Shown: one piece after another, positions 1-12,445 of the stretch | Position numbering within the stretch: the stretch's first letter is position 1 | Layout of the letters: each line of letters opens with the position of its first letter | Assembly (NCBI GenBank): GCA_018667995.1 | Contig: JABIQT010000027.1 | Span: 1 to 18,285, forward strand | From: Candidatus Latescibacterota bacterium | GTDB lineage: Bacteria; JAAXHH01; JABIQT01 | DNA length: 18,285 bases | Direction: 5' to 3' | Notes under the pieces: model-generated | What the model was told of the DNA's origin: nothing | Seen by the model: the letters and a program-made list of their open reading frames with translations, nothing else | The model's database searches: none | Translations under genes and position numbers: made by a program

Positions 1-1
1 G

Positions 2-64
2 CTCGAAGGAAAACAGTATTTGGTTCAAGATGGTGACGTGATGAACATCCGCTTCAACGTGTAA
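2..64 (+). CDS. ychF: Redox-regulated ATPase YchF, C-terminal end only
   Basis: The window opens inside this gene and shows only its last 20 codons before a TAA at 62-64. The final residues read VQDGDVMNIRFNV, which closely matches the highly conserved end of the TGS domain of YchF/OLA1 (usually ...DGDVMHFRFNV). YchF is an Obg-family P-loop ATPase that binds ribosomes and is a near-universal chromosomal housekeeping gene. Its presence here argues that the following initiator-like genes lie on the chromosome and not on a plasmid. Only 16 bases separate its stop from the next start, so co-transcription is likely. The identification rests on a short but distinctive tail. Confidence 0.85.
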   Translation, partial: LEGKQYLVQDGDVMNIRFNV

Positions 65-80
65 ATTCCTGGAAAAGACC

Positions 81-2486
81 ATGAGTGACGATTCCAAACT
101 TGAGGGTGTCCAAGGCGGTACGGATCGCCTATTGACAGCACTGACCGAAGGTGGAACACCATTTGGGCTCCTGCCGCTGTTCTCTCTGGATGACGAAGAC
201 CGACGACGTAAACACACTCTGAACTACGAGAAACAGATCACTCTCGATGCAGAGCAACTGGCCTTCAAATGGCAGGTCTCCGCCGATCCAAGTTACGGCT
301 TCCCCGATGCGTTTGACCGTAAAGTATTCAAGATCATTGAGGCGCTTGCTCTTCGTCCGGAGAAGCCGCTGAGGAATCCGGTCTTTTTCTCGCTTTACCA
401 GATATTACAGGTCCTGGACCTTCCCCCGTTTGGTATGCATTTCGCAAGAGTCAGATCCTCAATACAACGTATTGCAGCCCTCAAAATCCACACTCATTTT
501 ACGCGAGCTGGGACGGACAACGCGGATCTGCATTCTGAGACTTTCCATGTTTACAACGATGTCGTTTTCCAGGAAGAGGCTTTCGGCAATGATATTGGCG
601 CAGGCAATCATCAGTTGAATCTGGGCGAGTGGTATCTGGAAGGGCTCAATGAGGGTTTCATTCAGCCTATGGACCTTGGTCTCCTTGCGAGTATACCGGA
701 TCCCGTGAGCAACCGTCTTTGCGAGGTCTTACAGTGCAAATTTGCCGACAAGGGGACGAAGCGTGATATCGGGTGGCATGTCTCGTATTCAGATCTGTGC
801 CAGCTTCTGCCCATCAAGGAGGCGGGTTGGATTACAAATCCCCAGCGGCAACTGGACGGAATGCATGAAGAGTTGATCGCTTTAGATGTGCTGGACCGTG
901 TTGAGTGGGAGAAATCCAGCGCTGGATGGACGTTGGTTTATATACCAGGGCAGAATCGCACGGCTGATGCAGGGGAATCTGGAAAACCATCGCTCCAGGA
1001 ATCCGAATTAGAGAGCCCTGAGCAGAATCTTTCCGATGACTCGGAAGATTCCGGAGACATGGAGACCCCATTTCTATCCGATTCTACAGTACGTTCAGAA
1101 CTAGGAAATGAGCCACATCCGGAAAGCGACGCGACAGACGTCGAAGACGATGTTCCCCTACCCTCTGAGCAAATCAATATCGATGATCCTGAGGCCGATG
1201 CACCACCGCAGCAACCCCTTACCGATCAACAAGTCACGGGGAAGGATACTCTCGATAATACCGACGTCGATGATGATGTAGAATCCAACGATCAGCATGC
1301 TTCTCAGCGGGATGACATACCAGACGACCATTCGGTCCATGATTTGGTAACGGGTCTTGAAGAACAGGATGAAGTCAAAGAGGGAGACGACTACGCTGAG
1401 AGCGATGCTATGGAGAGTCCGTTGAATGAAGATTCCACTATTGAGCCAGATGAAGAATCCGAATACAGTTCATCTGAAAAGGGCACCTCTGACCCGAAAA
1501 CCAGCCCGGACGTGACCGGTGGAGCGGCCCTAGCTGAGAACCATTTACTTGACAGCGGTACAGGTGCACCCGATACTGATTCCGATGCCGATATTCAGGA
1601 CACGCTAGACACCGCAGTACCTCATGATGCTATCGAGAATTCTGGGATTGAGCAGTCGTCAGAAGACAACGGAAATTGTGGGACCGAACCAGCAGACGTC
1701 CCTGGACTGATTGACGATTGTGAGAAAGTGGAGGCGCCTGCAGACGAAGTACAACCGGTTACGGAACTTGCGCCGCAAGACATTTCAGCCGCAGGAGATA
1801 CCGAGAATCCGTATGTTAACACTCCGACCGGTGGCAGTGAATCAACTCCGGTCGATCAAACTGAGGAAGACGAAGCTATCCAGGGGGTACCACAGGAGAG
1901 TGAGATAGAGCTTGATCGCAAATACCAAATGCACCAGTATAGCGAGAAAGCAAACTTTGTCGACCCACCTGATACGAAGAGAACCAACGAAGTAGAATCG
2001 AATGAACACGACACAGGTGAACCTGTTTCCATAATCATAACGGAATCAAAAGGAGCCAAAATGTTGGAACGAAATGGCGATTATTCACTTTGTGATATCA
2101 AATTTCACATTGCCTGGACCACAAAAGCACGCGATCCTATACTGACCAACGGTGTCGGCACAAGATCGCGGGAACTCATTCGCGAGATCTGCGCAGTCCA
2201 TGATGCGCGCATCGTCAGTGGCCTTGTGGCACCGGACCACATACACATCGAAGTCGCCTGCCCGCCTACGGTCGCTCCTGGTGATCTTGTAAGCGATCTC
2301 AAGGAACGTACGCTGCAGACACTTATGGACGAATTTCCTGACCTCAAGCAGCAGTACTGGGGGCATGCGATTTGGTCCGTGGGTTACCTCTGCGTAACGA
2401 GTGGCGGCAATGCCGAAGAACAATTGCGTCAATATCTGGACGCTCAGCAGTCCGCCAAGGACGATGTATTCCAGGTGACGTCGTAA
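81..2486 (+). CDS. Replication-initiator-A-like protein fused through an acidic linker to a Y1 (IS200/IS605 TnpA-type) HUH transposase domain
   Basis: The protein has 801 residues in three parts. Residues ~25-293 resemble plasmid replication initiator A (RPA-type) proteins: a LPLFSL start, a YGFPDAFDRKVF segment, then predicted winged-helix-like stretches ending near LVYIPGQN. Residues ~296-660 form a long, apparently disordered linker very rich in Asp and Glu with few basic residues. Residues 661-801 align along their whole length with IS200/IS605 TnpA: a WTTKARDP motif near the start, the HUH pair H720-I-H722, LKERTLQ, FPDLKQQYWG, and a C-terminal helix with candidate nucleophile Y785 and Q789. 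The Y-x3-Q spacing matches the catalytic Tyr and third metal ligand of ISHp608 TnpA, so the domain looks intact. The ATG at 81 follows GGAAAAG. An internal AGGAG-ATG at 2051-2063 could produce the 141-residue TnpA domain alone. The next gene shares the N-terminal domain. The domain calls are strong; the function of the fusion is unknown. Single-strand DNA cleavage at sites bound by the initiator domain is an inference. Confidence 0.85.
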   Translation: MSDDSKLEGVQGGTDRLLTALTEGGTPFGLLPLFSLDDEDRRRKHTLNYEKQITLDAEQLAFKWQVSADPSYGFPDAFDRKVFKIIEALALRPEKPLRNPVFFSLYQILQVLDLPPFGMHFARVRSSIQRIAALKIHTHFTRAGTDNADLHSETFHVYNDVVFQEEAFGNDIGAGNHQLNLGEWYLEGLNEGFIQPMDLGLLASIPDPVSNRLCEVLQCKFADKGTKRDIGWHVSYSDLCQLLPIKEAGWITNPQRQLDGMHEELIALDVLDRVEWEKSSAGWTLVYIPGQNRTADAGESGKPSLQESELESPEQNLSDDSEDSGDMETPFLSDSTVRSELGNEPHPESDATDVEDDVPLPSEQINIDDPEADAPPQQPLTDQQVTGKDTLDNTDVDDDVESNDQHASQRDDIPDDHSVHDLVTGLEEQDEVKEGDDYAESDAMESPLNEDSTIEPDEESEYSSSEKGTSDPKTSPDVTGGAALAENHLLDSGTGAPDTDSDADIQDTLDTAVPHDAIENSGIEQSSEDNGNCGTEPADVPGLIDDCEKVEAPADEVQPVTELAPQDISAAGDTENPYVNTPTGGSESTPVDQTEEDEAIQGVPQESEIELDRKYQMHQYSEKANFVDPPDTKRTNEVESNEHDTGEPVSIIITESKGAKMLERNGDYSLCDIKFHIAWTTKARDPILTNGVGTRSRELIREICAVHDARIVSGLVAPDHIHIEVACPPTVAPGDLVSDLKERTLQTLMDEFPDLKQQYWGHAIWSVGYLCVTSGGNAEEQLRQYLDAQQSAKDDVFQVTS
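2051..2063 (+). promoter_or_regulatory. Internal ribosome binding site and ATG for a free Y1 transposase domain
   Basis: AGGAG at 2051-2055 lies five bases before an in-frame ATG at 2061, inside the fusion gene. The ATG corresponds to residue 661, exactly where ordinary IS200-type TnpA proteins begin relative to their first conserved strand. The product would have 141 residues, the usual length of a stand-alone TnpA. The sequence and spacing are seen directly; use of the site is inferred. It may be the original start of a transposase gene that became fused to the upstream frame. Confidence 0.55.
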
Positions 2487-2518
2487 GTCGGCCGGGCGGA
2501 TAACCCATCGAGGGTGGT

Positions 2519-4405
2519 ATGGTAACGGAAACTCGGCATGACGACAAGGAGACGTCGAGCTCTACACCATTCGTACTCTTCTCACCAGAAGAGACGACCC
2601 TCGCTGCCCTTCCCTTCTTCTCGACGGAGCCCAGCGATAGATCCAATATCTATCACCTCGACTACGAAACGAAGCTGGCGCATCACGACGTAAATGCCAC
2701 ATTACGGTGGAGGGTCTCCGCAGATCCGGTGTACGGGTATCCTGATCCTTTTGATCGCAAAGTCTTTAAGACTATAGAATATCTGGCTATCCAGCAAACG
2801 GGATTGCCCTTGCAGAATCCCGTCCGTATCTCACTGGAGCAGATCCTTGATCTCGTTGGACTAGCTCCTTTTCCAGCACACCTCGCTCGCCTTCGAGCCT
2901 CCATACGCAGAATCGCCGCGGTCACAGTGAGAAGCGATCTTACCTTTCTCACGGGACAGCGTACAGGACGATCCACGCAGACATTTCACGTCTACGACCG
3001 TGTGCTCTTCCGCGAAGCAACCCGCGACAGCACCTCCGAGGTACTTCAGAATCAGATCACATTCGGGGCCTGGTATCTCGAGAATATCAACCGACGATAC
3101 CTACGGCCTATTGATCTGCCCTTTTTCCGCGGTCTTCGAAACCCCATAGCAAGTCGGCTTTACGAGCTATTGACTGTTAAGTTCGAAACGGTACTCGAAC
3201 GTGAGTTAGCGGGGTGGCAAGTATCTTATCCGGTACTATGTGGCCTGTTGCCTATTCGACAAGCATTTCACGGACGCCAACGACAATTGGAGGCCTCACA
3301 TGAGGAGTTGGTTTCATCGGGCTTCGTTGCGGAGGTCTCATGGGAGAAGATCGATCGGACCTGGATGCTGCTGTACACGCCAGGACATCGGGCGAAGGCG
3401 CTGCAACAGAAGCAGATGCCAGATTTGGACTCCCGTCCAAAGCATCTGCCACCGCCCACAACCATAAACATATCGGAAGACAATTCGGAAGGCATTTCAA
3501 AGGAGTCACCCCAAGATCCCCCAAGGGCGAGTACGTTCAACCCGCCGGAGACGAAAGATATGAGCCAGAAGCAGCCACTTGATCTGGAGCAGTCTGATCA
3601 GGAGGTGCTTCTCTACTGGAAACTGACTGAACGACCATTTGACACCACCCCCAACCCAAAATTCTACTACAATAGCGGTCAGCACCAGGAAGCGTATTTC
3701 AAGATGCAGCATGCGGTCGCGACACAATCAGGAGCCATGCTATTGACCGGTGAGATCGGCTCAGGTAAAACGCTGCTGACACGGGCATTCATACACGGAC
3801 TGAATAGCGACCGATATGACGTGGCACTGCTGACGAACCCCCGTTGGGACGGGGTCGCACTGTTACGAGAGATACTATTTCAATTTGGGCAGGACGTGGA
3901 TACATCGGATAAGACAGAAATTCTACACAAAATCGAGGACATCTGGTTCAACACCTACACGGATGGCCGTCACACCGTCTTAATAATTGACGAGGCTCAG
4001 TTGATTGAGAATTATGAGACTTTCGAGGAATTGCGACTACTTCTGAATTTTCAGTTGGACGATCGCTACCTCATTACCCTCATTCTGGTGGGCCAGCCGG
4101 AACTAAATGCCCAGATAGACGCCATTCCGCAGTTTGAGCAGCGACTGGCATATCGGCACCACGTGTGCCCCTTGACCGAACTTGAGACGCGCGAATACAT
4201 TCGCCACCGACTTGAAATTGCAGGCACAACCGACAATCTATTCTTGAGAGAAAGCGCGAGTCGAATCTGTCAACTAACGCAGGGGATTCCCAGGCGGATC
4301 AACAGGCTCTGCAACATGTGTCTCTTAACGGGCTGGATGCGGAAGGCACAATCCATCGACGAAACTATTGTCGAGCATGCGGCCTCTCCCCACGGATCAT
4401 CTTGA
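2519..4405 (+). CDS. Replication-initiator-A-like protein fused to an ExeA/TniB-type AAA+ ATPase
   Basis: The protein has 628 residues. Residues ~17-290 are homologous to the N-terminal part of the upstream gene; shared anchors include RVSADPVYGYPDPFDRKVFK, FHVYDRV, the GAWYLE region and the QRQLEASHEEL region. A Pro/Ser/Glu-rich linker (~291-362) follows. Residues ~363-620 form an ExeA/GspA-like AAA+ module that opens with the family's typical YWKLTERPFDTTPNPKFYY. It has Walker A GEIGSGKT (411-418), Walker B VLIIDEAQ (487-494), a sensor-1-like VGQPEL (524-529), FEQRLAYR (539-546) with a possible arginine finger, and the sensor-2 region GIPRRINRLC (589-598). Related ATPases include ExeA of type II secretion and the transposition regulators TniB and TnsC. 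The neighbouring HUH fusion favours a DNA-processing role over secretion, but this is inference. It starts 32 bases after the upstream stop and ends seven bases before the convergent lpd stop. An internal GGAG-ATG near 3560 could yield a free 281-residue ATPase. Confidence 0.85.
   Translation: MVTETRHDDKETSSSTPFVLFSPEETTLAALPFFSTEPSDRSNIYHLDYETKLAHHDVNATLRWRVSADPVYGYPDPFDRKVFKTIEYLAIQQTGLPLQNPVRISLEQILDLVGLAPFPAHLARLRASIRRIAAVTVRSDLTFLTGQRTGRSTQTFHVYDRVLFREATRDSTSEVLQNQITFGAWYLENINRRYLRPIDLPFFRGLRNPIASRLYELLTVKFETVLERELAGWQVSYPVLCGLLPIRQAFHGRQRQLEASHEELVSSGFVAEVSWEKIDRTWMLLYTPGHRAKALQQKQMPDLDSRPKHLPPPTTINISEDNSEGISKESPQDPPRASTFNPPETKDMSQKQPLDLEQSDQEVLLYWKLTERPFDTTPNPKFYYNSGQHQEAYFKMQHAVATQSGAMLLTGEIGSGKTLLTRAFIHGLNSDRYDVALLTNPRWDGVALLREILFQFGQDVDTSDKTEILHKIEDIWFNTYTDGRHTVLIIDEAQLIENYETFEELRLLLNFQLDDRYLITLILVGQPELNAQIDAIPQFEQRLAYRHHVCPLTELETREYIRHRLEIAGTTDNLFLRESASRICQLTQGIPRRINRLCNMCLLTGWMRKAQSIDETIVEHAASPHGSS
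3547..3562 (+). promoter_or_regulatory. Possible internal ribosome binding site and ATG for a free ExeA-type ATPase
   Basis: GGAG at 3547-3550 precedes an in-frame ATG at 3560 by nine bases. The ATG is residue 348 of the fusion, just before the ExeA-type module (YWKLTERPF starts at residue 366). Initiation here would give a 281-residue ATPase, about the size of stand-alone ExeA-like proteins. The spacing is at the long end of the usual range, so this site is weaker than the equivalent one in the upstream gene. Confidence 0.35.
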
Positions 4406-4412
4406 GACACCG

Positions 4413-5831
4413 TTATTTGCGCTTGGGACTGTAAATATGGGTACTGAAACCGTAGTATGATTCGGCCGCTTCCATCATCGTCTCAGACAGCGTTGGATGA
4501 GGATGAATCGTCAACTGGAGGTCCGACGCAAGCGCAGCCATTTCTACTGCCAATGTCCCCTCAGCAATTAGTTCCCCGGCTCCTGGACCGACAATCCCAA
4601 CCCCCAGTATCCGATCGGTCTCGGGATCAACGATTAGCTTTGTCAGCCCCTCTTGCCGATCCAAGGTCATAGCCCTCCCTGATGCAGCCCAAGGAAAGCG
4701 TGCTACCTTGACCTCCCGTCCCTCTGACTTGGCCTGAGTTTCGGTCAACCCGCACCAGGCGAGCTCTGGATCAGTAAAGACAACTGCAGGAATCGCCGCT
4801 GGCTCAAAGGCGACTTTCGCACCACCTATAGACTCCGCCGCGACAATTCCCTCATGCGATGCTTTGTGAGCCAGCATCGGATCCCCTGAAATATCTCCTA
4901 TGGCATATATGGCCTGATCGGTGGTCCGTCGCTGGGCATCGACTTGAATAAACCCCTTCTCGGTCAACGCAACGCCGGTGTTCTCCAGACCAAGATCTCG
5001 TGTATTTGGTACTCTACCAACTGCCATGAGGACCTTCTCGAAAGTCTGTTCACGTTTTTCTGCATCCTTACCCTCAAAACTGGCTCTTATTCCACCGCGG
5101 GCTTTGACTAGTCCGGTTACGCTGGTGTTCAGGAGCACCTCGGCCATTTGTTCTCTGACACTTTTCGCCAGAACACCCACCAAGTTCGCATCCGCACCTG
5201 GCAGAAGATTTGGGGTCATCTCAACCACTGTTACTTTCGTCCCGAGCGCGGCATATACAGTACCGAGTTCCAATCCGATATAGCCACCACCAATCACCAG
5301 CAGGGTTTTTGGAATACTCTCAAGCGCCAAAGCCCCGGTGGAATCCATGAATCTCGGGCTATCGATGTAAAGCGATGGGATCATAACAGGTCGAGATCCA
5401 GTTGCAAGGATAGCATTGTCGAAGGAAAGCGATTTAGTCTCTCCTTCAATGCTTTCAATGTTCAACGAATTTGGTCCGCTAAACCGTGCTCGCCCTTGTA
5501 TCAAATCCACGTTTCGCTTTTTGCTGAGATCGCCTAAACCTTTTGTGAGGCGGCTTACGACACCATCCTTCCACTTCCGTACCTTGTCGATGTCAATCTC
5601 AGGCTCTCCGTACGAGACCCCCCAAGCTGCGGCCTCTCGTGTCTCGTTGATCACTTTTGCGACGTGTAGCAGGGCTTTCGATGGGATGCAGCCACGATAA
5701 AGACATACACCACCGGGATTTATCTCCGGATCGATCAATGTAACCTTCATACCAAGGTCTGCGGCCATAAAAGCCGCCGCATAGCCCCCAGGACCGCCAC
5801 CAATGACTGCAACGTGTTTCGGCTCGCTCAT
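4413..5831 (-). CDS. lpd: Dihydrolipoyl dehydrogenase (E3 of pyruvate dehydrogenase)
   Basis: This FAD flavoprotein reoxidises the dihydrolipoyl arms of the E2 subunit and passes electrons to NAD+. Numbered from the ATG at 5831 (472 residues), it has the FAD-binding GGGPGG at 11-16 and the redox disulfide C43-LYRG-C48 in a GGVCLYRGCIPSKALL context. A second Rossmann motif (VIGGGYIGLELG) binds NAD. The C-terminal HPHPTLSE carries the catalytic His-Glu pair H445/E450. Length and all key residues are those of a functional E3. A TTG at 5861 and an ATG at 5855 lie in frame upstream, but the ATG at 5831 begins at the usual MSEPKHVAVIGGG position and has GGAG nine bases before it, so I chose it. It is the last gene of aceE-aceF-lpd and converges on the initiator-like ATPase gene with a seven-base gap. 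Confidence 0.95.
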   Translation of the reverse strand: MSEPKHVAVIGGGPGGYAAAFMAADLGMKVTLIDPEINPGGVCLYRGCIPSKALLHVAKVINETREAAAWGVSYGEPEIDIDKVRKWKDGVVSRLTKGLGDLSKKRNVDLIQGRARFSGPNSLNIESIEGETKSLSFDNAILATGSRPVMIPSLYIDSPRFMDSTGALALESIPKTLLVIGGGYIGLELGTVYAALGTKVTVVEMTPNLLPGADANLVGVLAKSVREQMAEVLLNTSVTGLVKARGGIRASFEGKDAEKREQTFEKVLMAVGRVPNTRDLGLENTGVALTEKGFIQVDAQRRTTDQAIYAIGDISGDPMLAHKASHEGIVAAESIGGAKVAFEPAAIPAVVFTDPELAWCGLTETQAKSEGREVKVARFPWAASGRAMTLDRQEGLTKLIVDPETDRILGVGIVGPGAGELIAEGTLAVEMAALASDLQLTIHPHPTLSETMMEAAESYYGFSTHIYSPKRK

Positions 5832-5865
5832 ATTCCCATTCTCCAATGCCGGCATTTCCAATCTG

Positions 5866-7167
5866 TTAACCTTCCAAGCTCAACAGGAATGGCTGCTCGA
5901 AGGCCTCAATCAACCACTTCATAAACCTGGCACCATCGGCACCATCGATCAAACGGTGATCGTAAGATATCATCAATGGAAGACGCAGCCTAGGCTCAAA
6001 GGCGCCGTCGCGATAAACGGGTTCAATTCGTCCGCGGGCAAGACCCAGAATAGCCACGTCAGGGGCGTTGATTATAGGCGTAAAATACTCCCCCCCGAAA
6101 CCGCCCAGATTGGTCAACGTAAACGTACTTCCCTGCATATCCTCAAGTGACAGTTTGCGGTCTCTAGCCTTAGCGGCAATTTCGGCTAACTCGACGGTGA
6201 GGTCGATGATGCTCTTCTGGTCCACATCCCTTATAACCGGTACCACCAACCCTCGATCCGTATCCACGGCTACCCCAATGTGGTAGTAGCTCTTGTAGAC
6301 TATCTCCTGCCGTGCCATGTCTATACTGGCGTTGAAATTGGGGAACTTCTTCAATCCTGCCACCGCGAACTTCAGCGCGATCGCGGTCATCGTAAGTTTG
6401 CCCCCCTCAGCCTCAGCCCTAGGACCATACTTTTTACGTAGCGCCTCAAGATCAGTAATATCTGCCTTGTCGGCGTACGTCACATGGGGAATGCTCGTCC
6501 AGGCACGGCTCAAATGCGCTGCAGCAGCGCGCCGGAGATTCGTGACTGGTTCCCGTGTGATCGGACCCCATTTCTCAAAATCAGGTAGTGCAACCGCTGG
6601 GGCATGGATAGATGATCCCGCTACGGACGCCATATTGGCATTGAGATTTTTGGCGTGTAATTTCACATTTTCTATGGAGATACGCCCGGCAGCACCCGTG
6701 CCAGTCACTTGTCTGATGTCAATCCCGATCTCTCGGGCAAACCTCCGTACGGAGGGTGCGGCCGGAACGGTATTGGACGCCGGAGCGTCATGTGCTTCAT
6801 CAATTTCCCCTGTGGGCACTACCTGAGCGAAAACGACCTCGGAAGGTGGGACGGCTGGGGATTCATCGACGGCGACCGGTTCCGGATCTGATTGTGTTTG
6901 CGTAGTTTCTACAACTTGAACGTCGTCCCCGGTCACCTCTACAGTCAGAACGGGCTCGCCGACCACCGCCTGGTCGCCTTCCTTTACCAGCAATTCCTGG
7001 ACTACCCCTTGTACCGTTGAAGGTACTTCCAGCGTAGCTTTATCGGTCTCAATCTCGAGAACGGCCTGATCCTCGGCAATCGTATCGCCCACCGACACCA
7101 GAATTCCGACAATTGTCCCCGACTCTATGTTTTCACCCAGCGGGGGAAGGTTGAATGGTGTTGACAT
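5866..7167 (-). CDS. aceF: Dihydrolipoamide acetyltransferase (E2 of pyruvate dehydrogenase), single lipoyl domain
   Basis: E2 is the structural core of the complex and transfers the acetyl group to CoA. The 433-residue protein has one lipoyl domain (~1-80) with the lipoylated lysine K43 in IETDKATLEVPS. An acidic, Pro/Val-rich linker (~81-132) follows, then a peripheral-subunit-binding domain (~137-173, SVRRFAREIGIDIRQVTGTG...) and the catalytic domain (~200-433). The active-site motif DHRLIDGADG includes H404 and D408. E. coli AceF has three lipoyl domains, so this is a shorter but common variant. The ATG at 7167 has GGAG seven bases upstream. The stop lies 34 bases before the preferred lpd start, and the gene follows aceE after 62 bases, consistent with one operon. 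Confidence 0.95.
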   Translation of the reverse strand: MSTPFNLPPLGENIESGTIVGILVSVGDTIAEDQAVLEIETDKATLEVPSTVQGVVQELLVKEGDQAVVGEPVLTVEVTGDDVQVVETTQTQSDPEPVAVDESPAVPPSEVVFAQVVPTGEIDEAHDAPASNTVPAAPSVRRFAREIGIDIRQVTGTGAAGRISIENVKLHAKNLNANMASVAGSSIHAPAVALPDFEKWGPITREPVTNLRRAAAAHLSRAWTSIPHVTYADKADITDLEALRKKYGPRAEAEGGKLTMTAIALKFAVAGLKKFPNFNASIDMARQEIVYKSYYHIGVAVDTDRGLVVPVIRDVDQKSIIDLTVELAEIAAKARDRKLSLEDMQGSTFTLTNLGGFGGEYFTPIINAPDVAILGLARGRIEPVYRDGAFEPRLRLPLMISYDHRLIDGADGARFMKWLIEAFEQPFLLSLEG

Positions 7168-7229
7168 TGATTCGCTCCGTTTTCAGATAGGCAGAGACAA
7201 TAACACTCTACGGACAATTTCTGCATCTA

Positions 7230-9926
7230 TTACAGCATGATGGGATTTTCTTTATTCGGGTCCATCTCCATCTTCCTCATCGCCCGATTGACTTCCTCTC
7301 CTGTGATCTCACCATCACGTGCCAACGCGTGAAGTGTGGCGAGAACCACGTGGCGAGCATCTACCTCAAAGAAGTCTCGCAACTCGGCGCGGTTGCCACT
7401 TCTGCCGAACCCGTCCGTGCCCAAGGCGATGAGTGGTCTGGGAAACCATGAGCCTATGGAATCGGGTAATGCTTTAACGTAATCCGAGGCGGCGACAAAC
7501 ACCCCTTCTTCGTCGGAGATACACCTAGTTATGTAAGGTACACGCTGCTCCTCCTCAGGATGCATCATATTCCACCGATCCGCATCGGCGGCTTCGTTCT
7601 GCAGGCACTTGTAGCTGGTAATACTCCAGACATCGGCGGCGACACCGTGGCTTCGCTCCAACATGTCGGCTGCTCGAAGCACTTCGTTCAAAATAGCCCC
7701 ACTGCCAAAGAGTTGCGCACGGTGTTTGGGCTTCCGCTTAGTGGACTTTCGGAATCGATACATACCTTTGAGAATACCCTCTTTCAGATTCTCAATTTTA
7801 TCTGGCGGGTCCGGCATGGCATACGTCTCATTCATCACCGTGATGTAGTAGAACACACTCTCCTGTTCCTTGTACATTCGCCGAATGCCTTCTTCCACGA
7901 TGATAGCAAGTTCGTACGCATATGCGGGATCATAGGAAAGCAGGTTGGGTACGGGATAGGCGAGAAGGTGACTATTACCATCCTGATGTTGGAGACCTTC
8001 ACCGGCAAGAGTTGTCCGCCCGGAGGTCGCTCCGACTAAGAATCCGCGACAACGTAGATCCCCGGCAGCCCAGACAAGATCACCCACGCGTTGAAGACCA
8101 AACATGGAATAGAAGATGTAGAACGGTATTGTATTGATTCCGAAATTAGAGTACGCCGTTCCAGCGGCAATGAAGGTGGACATGGCTCCGGCTTCGTTGA
8201 TACCTTCCTCGATAATCTGTCCGCTTTTGGATTCATTGTAGAACATCAGACTATCGGCGTCTACCGGATCATAGAGCTGACCTACCGCCGAGTAGATCCC
8301 GGCCTGACTGAAGAGTGCTTCCATACCGAAGGTACGAGCCTCGTCAGGGACGATAGGAACGATCATCTTACCGACTACCTTATCCTTTAGCAATCGTGCC
8401 AGAATCCTCACGAAGGCCATGGTCGTCGACACTTCACGGTCCCCAGTGCCCACAAAGAACTCGTCAAACAACTGCTCATCTGCGGGAGCAACGGTCGTGG
8501 ACTGCGAACGGCGCTGGGGTATATACCCTCCGAGATCGGCTCGCCGCTTGTGCAGATATTTCATTTCTTCACTGTCCTCCGCGGGGCGATAAAACGGAAG
8601 ATCATCTATTACATCGTCCGGAATTGGTACGCCAAATCGGTCTCTGAATGCTCTCAGGTCGTCCGCGTCGACCTTCTTCTGCTGATGTGTTATATTCATC
8701 CCTTCGCCGCCGTCGCCCAGGCCGTATCCTTTGATGGTCTTAGCCAGGATTACCGTGGGTGCCCCCTTGTGTTCCACAGCCTGCTTGTAGGCATTGTAGA
8801 CTTTCACGGGATCATGACCTCCTCTACGAAGATCACGAAGCTGCTCGTCGGTAAGGTGCTCTACAAGTTTCAGAAGCCGCGGATCCTTTCCGAAGAACTT
8901 TTGCCGGATATACCCTCCCGACTCCACAGAGTACTTCTGATATTCGCCATCTACGGCGTCCCCCATCCGCTCTACAAGAACGCCTTCATGGTCCTGATTC
9001 AATAGAGAATCCCAATCGCTACCCCAGACCACTTTGATGACATTCCAACCAGCGCCATAGAAGATAGTTTCCAACTCTTGAATGATCTTGCCATTGCCTC
9101 TTACCGGGCCGTCTAGTCGTTGGAGATTGCAGTTGATTACGAAAATGAGGTTATCCAAGTTCTCTCGTGCAGCTACGCCAATGGCACCCAACGATTCGGG
9201 TTCGTCGCTCTCGCCGTCTCCCATAAATACCCAGATTTTCGAATCATTCCGCTCCTTGAGACCTCGATCCTCAAGGTATTTCATGAATCGTGCCTGGTAG
9301 ATCGCCATGATTGGACCCAACCCCATGGAAACTGTTGGAAATTCCCAGAAATCAGGCATTAACCAAGGATGCGGATAGGAAGAGAGTCCGTCGCGGTCGA
9401 CCTCGTGTCGGAAATTCTTGAGTTGCTCCTCTGTCAAGCGACCTTCCAGAAAACCACGCGCGTAAATCCCTGGAGAACCATGTCCCTGAAAGTAGACTCG
9501 GTCGCCATCATAGGCATTAGTTCGCGCTCTAAAGAAATGATTAAAACCGACTTCGTACAGCGTCGCAGCAGAGGCGTAGGTCGAGATATGACCGCCTATG
9601 GTACTGTCGTTACGATTTGCCCGAGCGACCATGGCAAGTGCATTCCACCGATTAATTCCTTTGATGCGCCGCTCAATAGCACGGTCACCCGGGAAGGAGA
9701 CCTGGTTATCGGGAGAGATAGTGTTGATATAAGGTGTATTTGTGCTATAGGGGGAGGTAATACCGGCACGGGCCGCGAGTGATTCGAGCGCCTGCAATAG
9801 ACGATAAACACGCTTGGGATCGCCCTGCGATATGACGTACTCCATAGAGTACAGCCACTCTTCAAGCTCTATCTGTTCTACATCCGTGTCCTGATCCTTA
9901 CTTCCGGGAGAATCCATAGTATCCAT
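7230..9926 (-). CDS. aceE: Pyruvate dehydrogenase E1 component, homodimeric AceE type
   Basis: AceE decarboxylates pyruvate with thiamine diphosphate and acetylates the E2 lipoyl arm. The 898-residue protein is close to the usual ~890 and matches the homodimeric E1 family from end to end. The ThDP/Mg motif starts at G236-D237-G238 (GDGESDEPES) and ends at the INCNLQRLDGPV segment (N265/N267). The mobile active-site loop is recognisable as KTIKGYGLGD...NITHQQKK with its conserved histidine. Other family landmarks are GHISTYASAATLYEVGFNHFF near residue 112 and FYNESKSGQIIEEGI in the second half. The ATG at 9926 has AGGAG ten bases upstream. The gene leads the aceE-aceF-lpd operon and has a good promoter at 9967-9995. 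No PdhR-like regulator gene is present in the window. Confidence 0.97.
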   Translation of the reverse strand: MDTMDSPGSKDQDTDVEQIELEEWLYSMEYVISQGDPKRVYRLLQALESLAARAGITSPYSTNTPYINTISPDNQVSFPGDRAIERRIKGINRWNALAMVARANRNDSTIGGHISTYASAATLYEVGFNHFFRARTNAYDGDRVYFQGHGSPGIYARGFLEGRLTEEQLKNFRHEVDRDGLSSYPHPWLMPDFWEFPTVSMGLGPIMAIYQARFMKYLEDRGLKERNDSKIWVFMGDGESDEPESLGAIGVAARENLDNLIFVINCNLQRLDGPVRGNGKIIQELETIFYGAGWNVIKVVWGSDWDSLLNQDHEGVLVERMGDAVDGEYQKYSVESGGYIRQKFFGKDPRLLKLVEHLTDEQLRDLRRGGHDPVKVYNAYKQAVEHKGAPTVILAKTIKGYGLGDGGEGMNITHQQKKVDADDLRAFRDRFGVPIPDDVIDDLPFYRPAEDSEEMKYLHKRRADLGGYIPQRRSQSTTVAPADEQLFDEFFVGTGDREVSTTMAFVRILARLLKDKVVGKMIVPIVPDEARTFGMEALFSQAGIYSAVGQLYDPVDADSLMFYNESKSGQIIEEGINEAGAMSTFIAAGTAYSNFGINTIPFYIFYSMFGLQRVGDLVWAAGDLRCRGFLVGATSGRTTLAGEGLQHQDGNSHLLAYPVPNLLSYDPAYAYELAIIVEEGIRRMYKEQESVFYYITVMNETYAMPDPPDKIENLKEGILKGMYRFRKSTKRKPKHRAQLFGSGAILNEVLRAADMLERSHGVAADVWSITSYKCLQNEAADADRWNMMHPEEEQRVPYITRCISDEEGVFVAASDYVKALPDSIGSWFPRPLIALGTDGFGRSGNRAELRDFFEVDARHVVLATLHALARDGEITGEEVNRAMRKMEMDPNKENPIML

Positions 9927-10124: not shown

Positions 10125-10198
10125 CGATCGAATCACAAGTCTGTACAGGTCTTCCAAGTACCCATTTGTCGATCTGGTTCTTACTGGATAACCCGCCT

Positions 10199-12445
10199 AT
10201 GCACTATCTAAGATCACTTATTCTCGTTTCAATCCTTATCCTCGGAAACGGTGTTAATGCCAAGGCCCAGGAACCAGTGATTGTCACTTACTGGCGCCCG
10301 GCTTTTGACGTCGAACGAGACGCGACAATGCGCATGATCGAGGACTTTGAACGACAATATCCCCGGATCAAAATCAACATGGTGCCCACGTCCAGCTATG
10401 AGGAAAAGATCAAGACGGCTCTCGCAGGTGGTGTTGGCCCGGATATCATGGCAGTCGATGGCCCCCTCATCGCATTCTACGCTTATCAGGGGGCCCTGAT
10501 TCCGCTCGACGATTATTACACCCAAGCCAATCTAAGCGATTTCATTCCTGCTACGCTTGAGGAGATCACCTGGGACCAACATGTATGGACCGGGCCTCTG
10601 AACAACTCCAGTATAGCGGTTTACTACAATACGGAGATGTTTGAGCGGGCGGGTGTGACTCCGCCCCGGGAAATTGAAGACGCGTGGACCTGGGAGACAT
10701 TTGCAGCCAATGTGAGTAGCGTATCATCTGCTAACACAACAGGAGGGCGCAGCCCCCAGGGATTGTTGTTCGGGGTCGGCATCAATGAATTCGCCACCTA
10801 CGCTGAAATGCCGTGGTTGTGGCAAACTGACGGCGGGGTCCTGCGCCCGGACGGCATGCAGGCTTCCGGCTATCTCGACAGCCCGGCATCCGTCAGGGGT
10901 TTGACCGTATTCCAGGATCTCTACAGGCGCCACAAGATCGTATCTGTGGAAGAGATAACAGAAGGATTCCCATCGGGCAAGGCGGCATCGACCATTACCG
11001 GCCCCTGGAACATTCAGTTTTACCAGGAGCTCTATCCCGACCTGAAGTTTGGGATCATGCCATTGCCCCGCGATATCAAACAGGTCACGCCGTGCGGAAG
11101 CTGGCATATGGCTATTACCTCCCAATCCAAATATCCCGATGAAGCCTGGCTCTTTATCGACTGGATGACTGGAGTGGAGGGTAGTAAGAATTGGTACCAG
11201 GCCACAAATAACCTTCCTGCCCGCCATTCCACGTACCGTGCCTTTCCAGATCTCGAAGAATATCCCATGAGTATTTTTTCCGATCAGGTACGCTACACTG
11301 CCAGACCGCGCCCGGTGACACCCGTGTATCCGGTTGTAACTGATGCCGTAGCGCAGGCTTTTCAGAGTGCAGCCTACGGAGAACCACCCCGGGAAGTACT
11401 GGAGCGGGCAGCTATACGTATTGATGAAGAACTCGCGTTCGAATCGCTCGCGGCACGCGGCATGCAGTTTCCATCCATAATTCGATATGCGCTTATCATA
11501 TTGATTATATCGGGCGTGGTAATCGCCGCCGTTTCAATGGTCAAAATCATCCGTAAGAATGCAGTTGCTCTTCGAAGATCCGAGATGATCTGGGGATATG
11601 CATTGATTGCTCCTGCTATTGGAGGAATTCTGGTTTTCACTGTGATACCGATGGTTGTGGCCCTCTATTTGAGCTTTCATCACCCGTATGTTTTCCGGCC
11701 GGATCAATCAATGGCTTTTGTAGGCCTGGCCAACTATCGACATCTGTTATCAGATCCCTTGTTTTGGCAATCACTGATGAATTCTGGATACTTCGCCCTT
11801 GTTGTGGTACCTGTCCAAACAGCGACGGCCCTGGGATTGGCTTTGCTCATTCGCGAGAAAATTAAAGGAATAACCCTTTTCCGTAGCGCCTTCTTCGTGC
11901 CAGTGGTCACATCCATGGTCGTAGTCGCTATTATCTGGAAACTACTCTATAATGTCGATGCCGGGATCATCAATGGCCTACTGACACAGCTGGGACTTCC
12001 CAAACAGTTGTTTCTTGCGAGCACCTCACAGGCGATGCCGGCAATCATGGCCATGAGCGTCTGGAAAAGTTGCGGATTCTTCATGCTTATTTTCCTGGCG
12101 GGACTGCAGGCCATCCCGGACCAGCTGTACGAGGCGGCGATCGTCGACGGCGCCAGCCGGTGGCAGAGATTCCGACACGTAACGCTCCCCATGCTCAACC
12201 AGTCTATGCTCTTCGTACTGGTTATTACATCCATAGACGCCATGAAGCTCTTCGCGCCGATCTTCGTCATGACAAACGGCGGGCCGCTCAACTCCACAAA
12301 CGTGGTGGTGTACTATATCTACAAAGCAATGTTTCTATTTCTTAAAGTAGGTTACGCTTCAGCCATGGCATTTGTCCTATTTGGAATTATCCTTCTGCTC
12401 ACCCTTGTTCAGATGCGACTCCTGAAACGTGAATCGCTTTACTAG
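10199..12445 (+). CDS. Fused sugar ABC transporter substrate-binding protein and inner-membrane permease (MalE-MalF-type fusion)
   Basis: Numbered from the ATG at 10199 (748 residues). Residues 1-23 look like a signal sequence (hydrophobic core LILVSILILG, AKA-Q cleavage-like site). Residues ~24-420 are an extracellular solute-binding protein of the carbohydrate family: VTYWRPAFD, a GGVGPDIMAVDG segment, GKAASTITGPW, and WLFIDWMTG near the end. A transmembrane helix (~428-450) joins this to a MalF/UgpA-type permease (~465-748) carrying the EAA loop EAAIVDGASRWQRF...LP (645-664). That loop contacts the ATPase. In most CUT1 importers these are two proteins, so here the binding protein is covalently tethered. 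An in-frame TTG at 10166 would put 11 residues before the signal peptide and is less likely, although neither start has a strong Shine-Dalgarno sequence. The second permease follows after 20 bases. The ATPase is not encoded in the window. Confidence 0.88.
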   Translation: MHYLRSLILVSILILGNGVNAKAQEPVIVTYWRPAFDVERDATMRMIEDFERQYPRIKINMVPTSSYEEKIKTALAGGVGPDIMAVDGPLIAFYAYQGALIPLDDYYTQANLSDFIPATLEEITWDQHVWTGPLNNSSIAVYYNTEMFERAGVTPPREIEDAWTWETFAANVSSVSSANTTGGRSPQGLLFGVGINEFATYAEMPWLWQTDGGVLRPDGMQASGYLDSPASVRGLTVFQDLYRRHKIVSVEEITEGFPSGKAASTITGPWNIQFYQELYPDLKFGIMPLPRDIKQVTPCGSWHMAITSQSKYPDEAWLFIDWMTGVEGSKNWYQATNNLPARHSTYRAFPDLEEYPMSIFSDQVRYTARPRPVTPVYPVVTDAVAQAFQSAAYGEPPREVLERAAIRIDEELAFESLAARGMQFPSIIRYALIILIISGVVIAAVSMVKIIRKNAVALRRSEMIWGYALIAPAIGGILVFTVIPMVVALYLSFHHPYVFRPDQSMAFVGLANYRHLLSDPLFWQSLMNSGYFALVVVPVQTATALGLALLIREKIKGITLFRSAFFVPVVTSMVVVAIIWKLLYNVDAGIINGLLTQLGLPKQLFLASTSQAMPAIMAMSVWKSCGFFMLIFLAGLQAIPDQLYEAAIVDGASRWQRFRHVTLPMLNQSMLFVLVITSIDAMKLFAPIFVMTNGGPLNSTNVVVYYIYKAMFLFLKVGYASAMAFVLFGIILLLTLVQMRLLKRESLY

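Follow-up and report, generated by a model that had tools for sequence, protein, structure and literature searches.

A tandem pair of chromosomal genes joins one replication-initiator-type domain to an IS200-type HUH domain and to an ExeA/TniB-like AAA+ domain

The window (the whole stretch of DNA analysed, 18,285 nucleotides) contains two tandem genes that share an initiator-type N-terminal domain and end in different effectors, an IS200-type Y1 HUH domain in gene 1 (RPA-Y1) and an ExeA/TniB-like AAA+ ATPase domain in gene 2 (RPA-AAA). Each domain is already of a known kind; the fusions and their tandem pairing are what appears to be new. The locus is single-copy and holds a fixed location behind ychF, the duplication behind the pair is old, gene 2 bears the mark of purifying selection, and one relative has lost metal ligands of the HUH domain. 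Our preferred reading, which is tentative and falls somewhat short of an even chance, is that of a chromosomal, vertically inherited locus consisting of a domesticated initiator-type ATPase and an accessory HUH paralogue, derived from plasmid-type replication initiators. The task of the pair is probably site-specific DNA handling, and its biological purpose would most likely be replication- or repair-linked site maintenance.

The two adjacent open reading frames described in an earlier note on this DNA are both present, and the locus is laid out as follows.

Positions 1 to 64, plus strand: C-terminal end of YchF (LEGKQYLVQDGDVMNIRFNV*), last 20 codons; the fixed upstream neighbour, near-identical to the YchF end of the relative G011.
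Positions 81 to 2486, plus strand: gene 1, RPA-Y1, 801 amino acids; initiator-fold domain, acidic linker and IS200-type Y1 HUH domain; same fusion in G011.
Positions 2519 to 4405, plus strand: gene 2, RPA-AAA, 628 amino acids; initiator-fold domain and ExeA/TniB-like AAA+ ATPase; orthologues in G011 (53%) and G001 (55-56%).
Positions 4413 to 5861, minus strand: dihydrolipoamide dehydrogenase gene (lpdA), convergent; downstream flank, outside the system.
Positions 5866 to 7167 (E2) and 7230 to 9926 (aceE, E1), convergent to the pair: remainder of the pyruvate dehydrogenase operon, a conserved flank.

The end of ychF and both genes of the pair lie on the same strand, with 16 bases between the ychF stop and gene 1 and 32 bases between genes 1 and 2. 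The remaining part of ychF in the window genome (G000) is found on a separate contig (C152:5-943), where genes for an M20 peptidase and ribosomal proteins lie upstream of it. The gene order ychF ... E2-aceE-dapA-DUF6785 is common to the window and the g3 genomes. Among the window genes, no plasmid gene, partition gene or integrase was seen near the pair, and DDE transposase, secretion and TnpB genes were likewise absent. Repeats or inverted repeats of at least 13 bases within 600 bases were not present in positions 1-7200, hence no iteron, operator or binding site was found there. Further downstream (10166-12445), a single open reading frame joins an extracellular solute-binding protein (SBP_bac) to an ABC permease (BPD_transp_1), which are usually separate genes.

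The shared N-terminal domain claimed in the earlier note was borne out, the two copies aligning with 38% identity over 323 residues (E 1e-65).

Positions 153 to 956, plus strand: RPA/Rep-type initiator domain of gene 1, residues about 25-292; 38% to gene 2; Foldseek matches to RctB (5tbf/5ubf), E about 4e-6.
Positions 2591 to 3388, plus strand: RPA/Rep-type initiator domain of gene 2, residues about 25-290; RPA profile, plasmid initiators, RctB fold.

Against the Pfam RPA profile (PF10134, cut-off 27 bits), gene 2 scores above the cut-off with 37.4 bits and gene 1 below it with 15.5 bits; the loci in G011, G001 and G013 also exceed it. Searches by tblastn with the shared domain recovered plasmid genes for 'replication initiator protein A' or 'TrfA' at 64-91% query coverage, from Rubrobacter (best E 5e-11), Deinococcus, Acidisarcina and others, and the homology to plasmid initiators spans residues 24-302, nearly end to end. 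Both structure models have low overall confidence (mean pLDDT about 47; 47.6 for gene 2), that of the initiator domain being only moderate (block pLDDT about 43-84). In the gene 2 model, the best structural match of this domain is RctB domains 2-3 (Z 13.4, 223 and 241 residues), well ahead of the remaining matches, among them RepA (1hkq), RepE and the RepE-operator entry 2z9o. For gene 1, the Foldseek list brings together RctB and IS200-family TnpA structures. The name initiator-like, and with it the earlier label RepA-like, is justified because the RPA profile, the plasmid-initiator homology and the RctB fold agree; as modelled, the shared domain has the two-winged-helix initiator fold. Fusions to Y1 or AAA domains were found in none of nine other RPA-matching proteins scanned. 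One of the closest relatives outside the phylum is an RPA gene in G384 with a gene resembling that of a DnaB-type replicative helicase some 800 bases away (L093:5399-6655 and 7439-9055), as one would expect in a replication module.

Rep-type proteins have an operator-binding dimeric form, and Rep dimers repress their own operons. The pair might be pictured as a module that controls transcription of the ychF operon or autoregulates it, the winged-helix domains serving as repressor-type regulators and the AAA+ domain switching with ATP; the tight spacing to ychF and between the genes suggests one operon, and the RepE-operator structure is among the matches to the gene 2 domain. We regard this as unlikely, given that no operator-like inverted repeat of at least 13 bases was found in positions 1-7200 of the window, that the HUH domain is left unexplained, and that ychF is kept without the pair in 11 g3 species. 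In G001, a five-copy AACGTT array with an 8-base period (L023:3146-3185) lies directly upstream of gene 2. It was rejected as a gene 2 operator because 73 such matches are scattered over the G001 genome; G000, G011, G013 and G002 have none.

In gene 1 the initiator domain is followed by a linker of about 363 residues and the Y1 domain.

Positions 957 to 2045, plus strand: acidic linker, residues 293-655, predicted disordered; 104 D/E versus 14 K/R, pLDDT about 30-40, no predicted secondary structure.
Positions 2082 to 2447, plus strand: Y1 HUH domain, residues 668-789; PF01797, NF033573, ISDra2 TnpA.
Positions 2238 to 2246, plus strand: HUH motif, H720-I-H722; aligned with DHVHL of ISDra2 TnpA.
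Positions 2433 to 2447, plus strand: Y motif, Y785-L-D-A-Q789; Y---Q signature of TnpA_IS200.

The Y1_Tnp profile (PF01797) matches residues 672-789 (E 9.9e-27), and the NCBIfam IS200 equivalog NF033573 is exceeded by a wide span (95.4 bits, cut-off 55). The closest solved relative is ISDra2 TnpA (2xm3, E 2.3e-18), with which the HUH motif and the tyrosine align. The Y---Q motif is the signature of TnpA_IS200 (PMC6006769). The full Y1 core (HUH with u = V/I, plus Y---Q) is present in the window copy, so that the earlier description of a complete Y1 domain is right for it (HIH at 720-722, Y785 and Q789), and is lacking in the G011 orthologue. A bare core, multiple copies and visible element ends, as in an IS200 element, are not what gene 1 displays: it is an 801-residue fusion and the sole Y1 of its genome, with one other in the set of 16 genomes.

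The C-terminal part of gene 2 is an ATPase domain.

Positions 3608 to 4378, plus strand: AAA+ ATPase domain, residues 364-620; AAA_22, TIGR03015, fold matches.
Positions 3749 to 3772, plus strand: Walker A, GEIGSGKT, residues 411-418.
Positions 3980 to 4000, plus strand: Walker B, LIIDEAQ, residues 488-494.

AAA_22 matches residues 403-531 (E 7.7e-22). TIGR03015 (ExeA-like, XrtA/PEP-CTERM ATPase) gives E 2.9e-63, yet its 213.8 bits lie below the equivalog cut-off of 324.5, and the TniB profile is passed marginally (23.8 bits, cut-off 22.4), with AAA_22 far stronger; the assignment to an ExeA/TniB-type AAA+ made earlier holds in this form. The modelled ATPase resembles Cdc6/ORC, TnsC and MuB with Z of 7-9, values that a common arrangement by itself can give. 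A DDE transposase in one element, as belongs to TniB and TnsC, is missing here, there being none among the window genes and the locus not being an element. None of the domain matches and alignments behind these assignments is at chance level.

The location of the pair was compared across a phylum sample of 16 genomes from one order, in which the relatives with the shared domain go under the labels Candidatus Latescibacterota (G001), Candidatus Zixiibacteriota (G011) and uncultured bacterium (a metagenome bin, G013). The order in G011 is M20 peptidase, ychF, RPA-Y1 and RPA-AAA, with gene 2 reading open to the contig end; as the same fusion and pair recur in this independent assembly, an assembly chimera was rejected. 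In G013, M20 and ychF are followed by an RPA remnant merging into the C-terminal portion of a thioredoxin-like gene, and in G001 M20 is followed by RPA-AAA alone, without gene 1. The g3 genomes have ychF, a thioredoxin-like gene, E2 and aceE, the pair being absent, and both genes are absent from 12 other species of the set. Gene 1 or its remnant stands immediately 3' of ychF in three genera (G000, G011 and G013). The recurrence of the same ychF-flanked place in relatives indicates an inherited chromosomal locus, and the absence from g3 is most simply read as loss because the pair or a remnant of it persists in G011 and G013, which belong to the same family. Where the window has the pair, the g3 loci (L053:4916-5497 and the others holding it) have the thioredoxin-like gene between ychF and E2. 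Its product is probably a selenoprotein, since a conserved in-frame TGA sits in the redox motif, at the first position (FSPT-U-GHC); the downstream fold of this gene was no more stable than shuffles.

The two genes differ in how well they are kept. Gene 2 is uninterrupted in all three of its carriers (G000, G011 and G001), and gene 1 is uninterrupted in the window genome only. In G011, gene 1 is interrupted by an in-frame TAA and, close to an A7 run, by a -1 frame change; the three metal ligands of its Y1 domain are replaced (PDSVQIEV/YLDGK, compared with PDHIHIEV/YLDAQ in the window), the tyrosine being kept. The Y1 arm looks dispensable, being missing in G001, broken and without its ligands in G011, and a fragment in G013; judged from these sequences, the nuclease arm is the first to go in relatives. 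The idea of a two-component system therefore stands in part. The pair recurs in G011, and adjacency, the test set in advance, gave a mixed answer: of the three genomes that carry the ATPase gene, two have the nuclease gene as well, uninterrupted in one of them only. An obligate pairing is weakened by G001, which keeps the ATPase only, and by the broken, ligand-less gene 1 of G011. With three carriers of gene 2 and gene 1 intact in one, co-function of the two proteins rests on their adjacency and shared domain.

The in-frame TAA occurs at the same gene 1 codon in two genera, in G011 at L025:3233-3235 (LIL*NKRPI) and in G013 on the minus strand of L057, just above 1893 (LIL*NERPI). Between these two genomes, 81% of second and 35% of third codon positions after the TAA are identical, suggesting that the downstream part stayed under selection. 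The TAA was either bypassed, by readthrough or restart, or arose twice. The frame change in G011 (L025, about 3641-3652) lies near CAGAAAAAAACC, which recalls slippery runs in certain IS transposases; it is no less likely to reflect an assembly error or simple decay.

Comparisons of codon positions and of the paralogues were used to examine the age and constraint of the genes. A branch with 99/98 support divides the gene 1 group from the gene 2 group, which places the duplication before these families diverged. In the AAA domain of gene 2, positions 1+2 are 72-80% identical and position 3 is 32-37% identical between the window and G011 or G001; over both domains the corresponding values are 62-80% and 32-37%. 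Since positions 1+2 are much better kept than the third, these sequences indicate that gene 2 is under strong purifying selection across a deep divergence. For the Y1 domain of gene 1, identities between the window and G011 at positions 1, 2 and 3 are 66, 71 and 39%, a pattern suggesting that Y1 was constrained during most of this divergence despite the ligands lost in G011. One way to read this is a binding role without cleavage; recent decay is the other.

These data bear on whether the pair is mobile. The earlier note had named mobilisation as one possible role, and an active or recent mobile element would have RPA-Y1 as transposase and RPA-AAA as target selector. The catalytic residues of the window Y1 are intact, and the ATPase fold resembles TnsC and MuB with TniB just over its cut-off. 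A mobilisation or transposition system is nonetheless very improbable: the pair is single-copy and fixed behind ychF in three genera, it shows neither visible ends nor a TnpB or DDE partner, positions 1-7200 have no repeats of at least 13 bases within 600 bases, the 16 bases from ychF to gene 1 leave no room for an IS left end, and the G011 ligands are lost. Neither Y1 domains nor TIGR03015-type ATPases occur beyond this locus in the 16 genomes, leaving no resident source of either domain.

The reading that ranks second differs from our preferred one in whether the pair still serves the host. The locus would here be a fossil left by an integrated plasmid, or by an integrative element, that was trapped behind ychF and whose replication once relied on the RPA initiator, the ATPase as helicase loader and the HUH nickase; gene 1 would now be in decay, and gene 2 retained in some minor or regulatory capacity. 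RPA proteins serve plasmids as initiators, one RPA match (L065) adjoins a ParA-like gene, gene 1 decays in G011 and G013, and both genes are missing in g3. Against it, no integrase, partition gene or further plasmid gene accompanies the pair, no iteron was found in positions 1-7200, gene 2 is under strong purifying selection over a deep divergence, and the paralogue groups are old; we consider it possible but doubtful.

An initiator-type locus could also have replaced DnaA as chromosome initiator in the lineages that keep it, and G000 and G001, the only genomes without PF00308, belong to the three that carry gene 2. The G000 contig C778, however, has the end of dnaA (the last ~139 residues, 62% identical) before dnaN-recF-gyrB, cut by the contig end, and G011 carries both DnaA and gene 2, which refutes the replacement for these two genomes; G001 is merely incomplete, because dnaN is missing there too. 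We give this explanation almost no credence.

In the domesticated-locus reading that we prefer, an ancestral initiator-fold gene would have been duplicated, the copies coming to carry different effectors. Gene 2 would be the core, its double winged-helix domain binding specific double-stranded sites and its AAA+ domain oligomerising there to remodel DNA or load a partner, like Rep/RctB and TnsC/MuB/Cdc6-type proteins. Gene 1 would be an accessory paralogue, brought to the same sites by the common recognition domain or by a mixed dimer, and may bind or nick a single-stranded hairpin through H720, H722, Q789 and Y785. From architecture and homology we infer DNA binding, ATPase activity and oligomerisation, shared sites, nicking and the process served. 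A more specific proposal, which we hold to be rather unlikely, is an immobile two-protein DNA system in which duplicated plasmid-initiator domains bring an HUH nickase and a AAA+ ATPase to the same sites, for host replication restart, site maintenance or processing of single-stranded DNA hairpins. If true, an IS200-type HUH domain has been domesticated and harnessed by a replication-initiator fold, and a TnsC/ExeA-like ATPase takes its DNA address from a Rep domain and not from a transposase partner. The locus also displays one initiator domain reused in tandem with two different effectors, and the states of the relatives (ligands lost, gene 1 lost, both absent) form a natural series for finding which part cells need.

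Neither the RPA-Y1 and RPA-AAA fusions nor their tandem pairing was found beyond the relatives in the genome, plasmid, phage and viral collections searched. The pairing was not found among several hundred genomes outside the order (overlapping sets), and its rarity holds within that sample. A search of genome contigs with four full rows returned only the three known relatives. Among plasmid records, none had the RPA-AAA fusion at more than 80% query coverage, the matches being standalone ExeA-type ATPases and standalone RPA proteins; close-relative scans gave no viral relative, the phage matches listed being Y1/IS-type transposases only; and a defence-system library gave a weak match of the AAA part of gene 2 only. 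In line with the earlier note, a search of open papers, which leaves out most subscription titles, turned up no account of such a pairing.

The pair can be set against several known systems. It has the same domain and fold as plasmid replication initiator protein A (PF10134; Deinococcus, Rubrobacter, Acidisarcina) and RctB of Vibrio chromosome 2, but differs from them in lying on the chromosome beside ychF, in two tandem copies with HUH and AAA+ effectors, with no iterons found in positions 1-7200 and no partition genes. With TnpA_IS200 (IS200/IS605, subclass 1.1; ISDra2, IS608), gene 1 shares the core, including HUH with I and Y---Q, whereas its Y1 domain stands behind an initiator domain and acidic linker, in single copy at a fixed locus without visible ends or tnpB. 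A survey of these proteins characterises subclass 1.1 as consisting of the core with no added domains; the same survey set aside proteins of unusual length (PMC6006769). Like RAYTs (TnpA_REP), gene 1 has a single-copy, vertically inherited, immobile Y1; its core, in contrast, is of IS200 type and REP repeats were not seen near the gene, and its identification as a RAYT was rejected (NF047646, 13.7 bits, cut-off 80). Gene 2 shares AAA_22, Walker A and B and a TnsC/MuB-like fold with the ExeA/XrtA-PEP-CTERM ATPases, TniB, TnsC and MuB; unlike them, it is fused to an initiator domain, falls under the TIGR03015 cut-off and has no DDE transposase or secretion genes nearby. An HUH nickase and an ATPase also serve a single initiation task in CRESS-type Rep and other HUH-helicase initiators, where one chain holds the nickase together with an SF3 or SF1 motor; here they are split over two initiator-domain paralogues, with an ATPase of the ExeA/TniB-type AAA+ kind.
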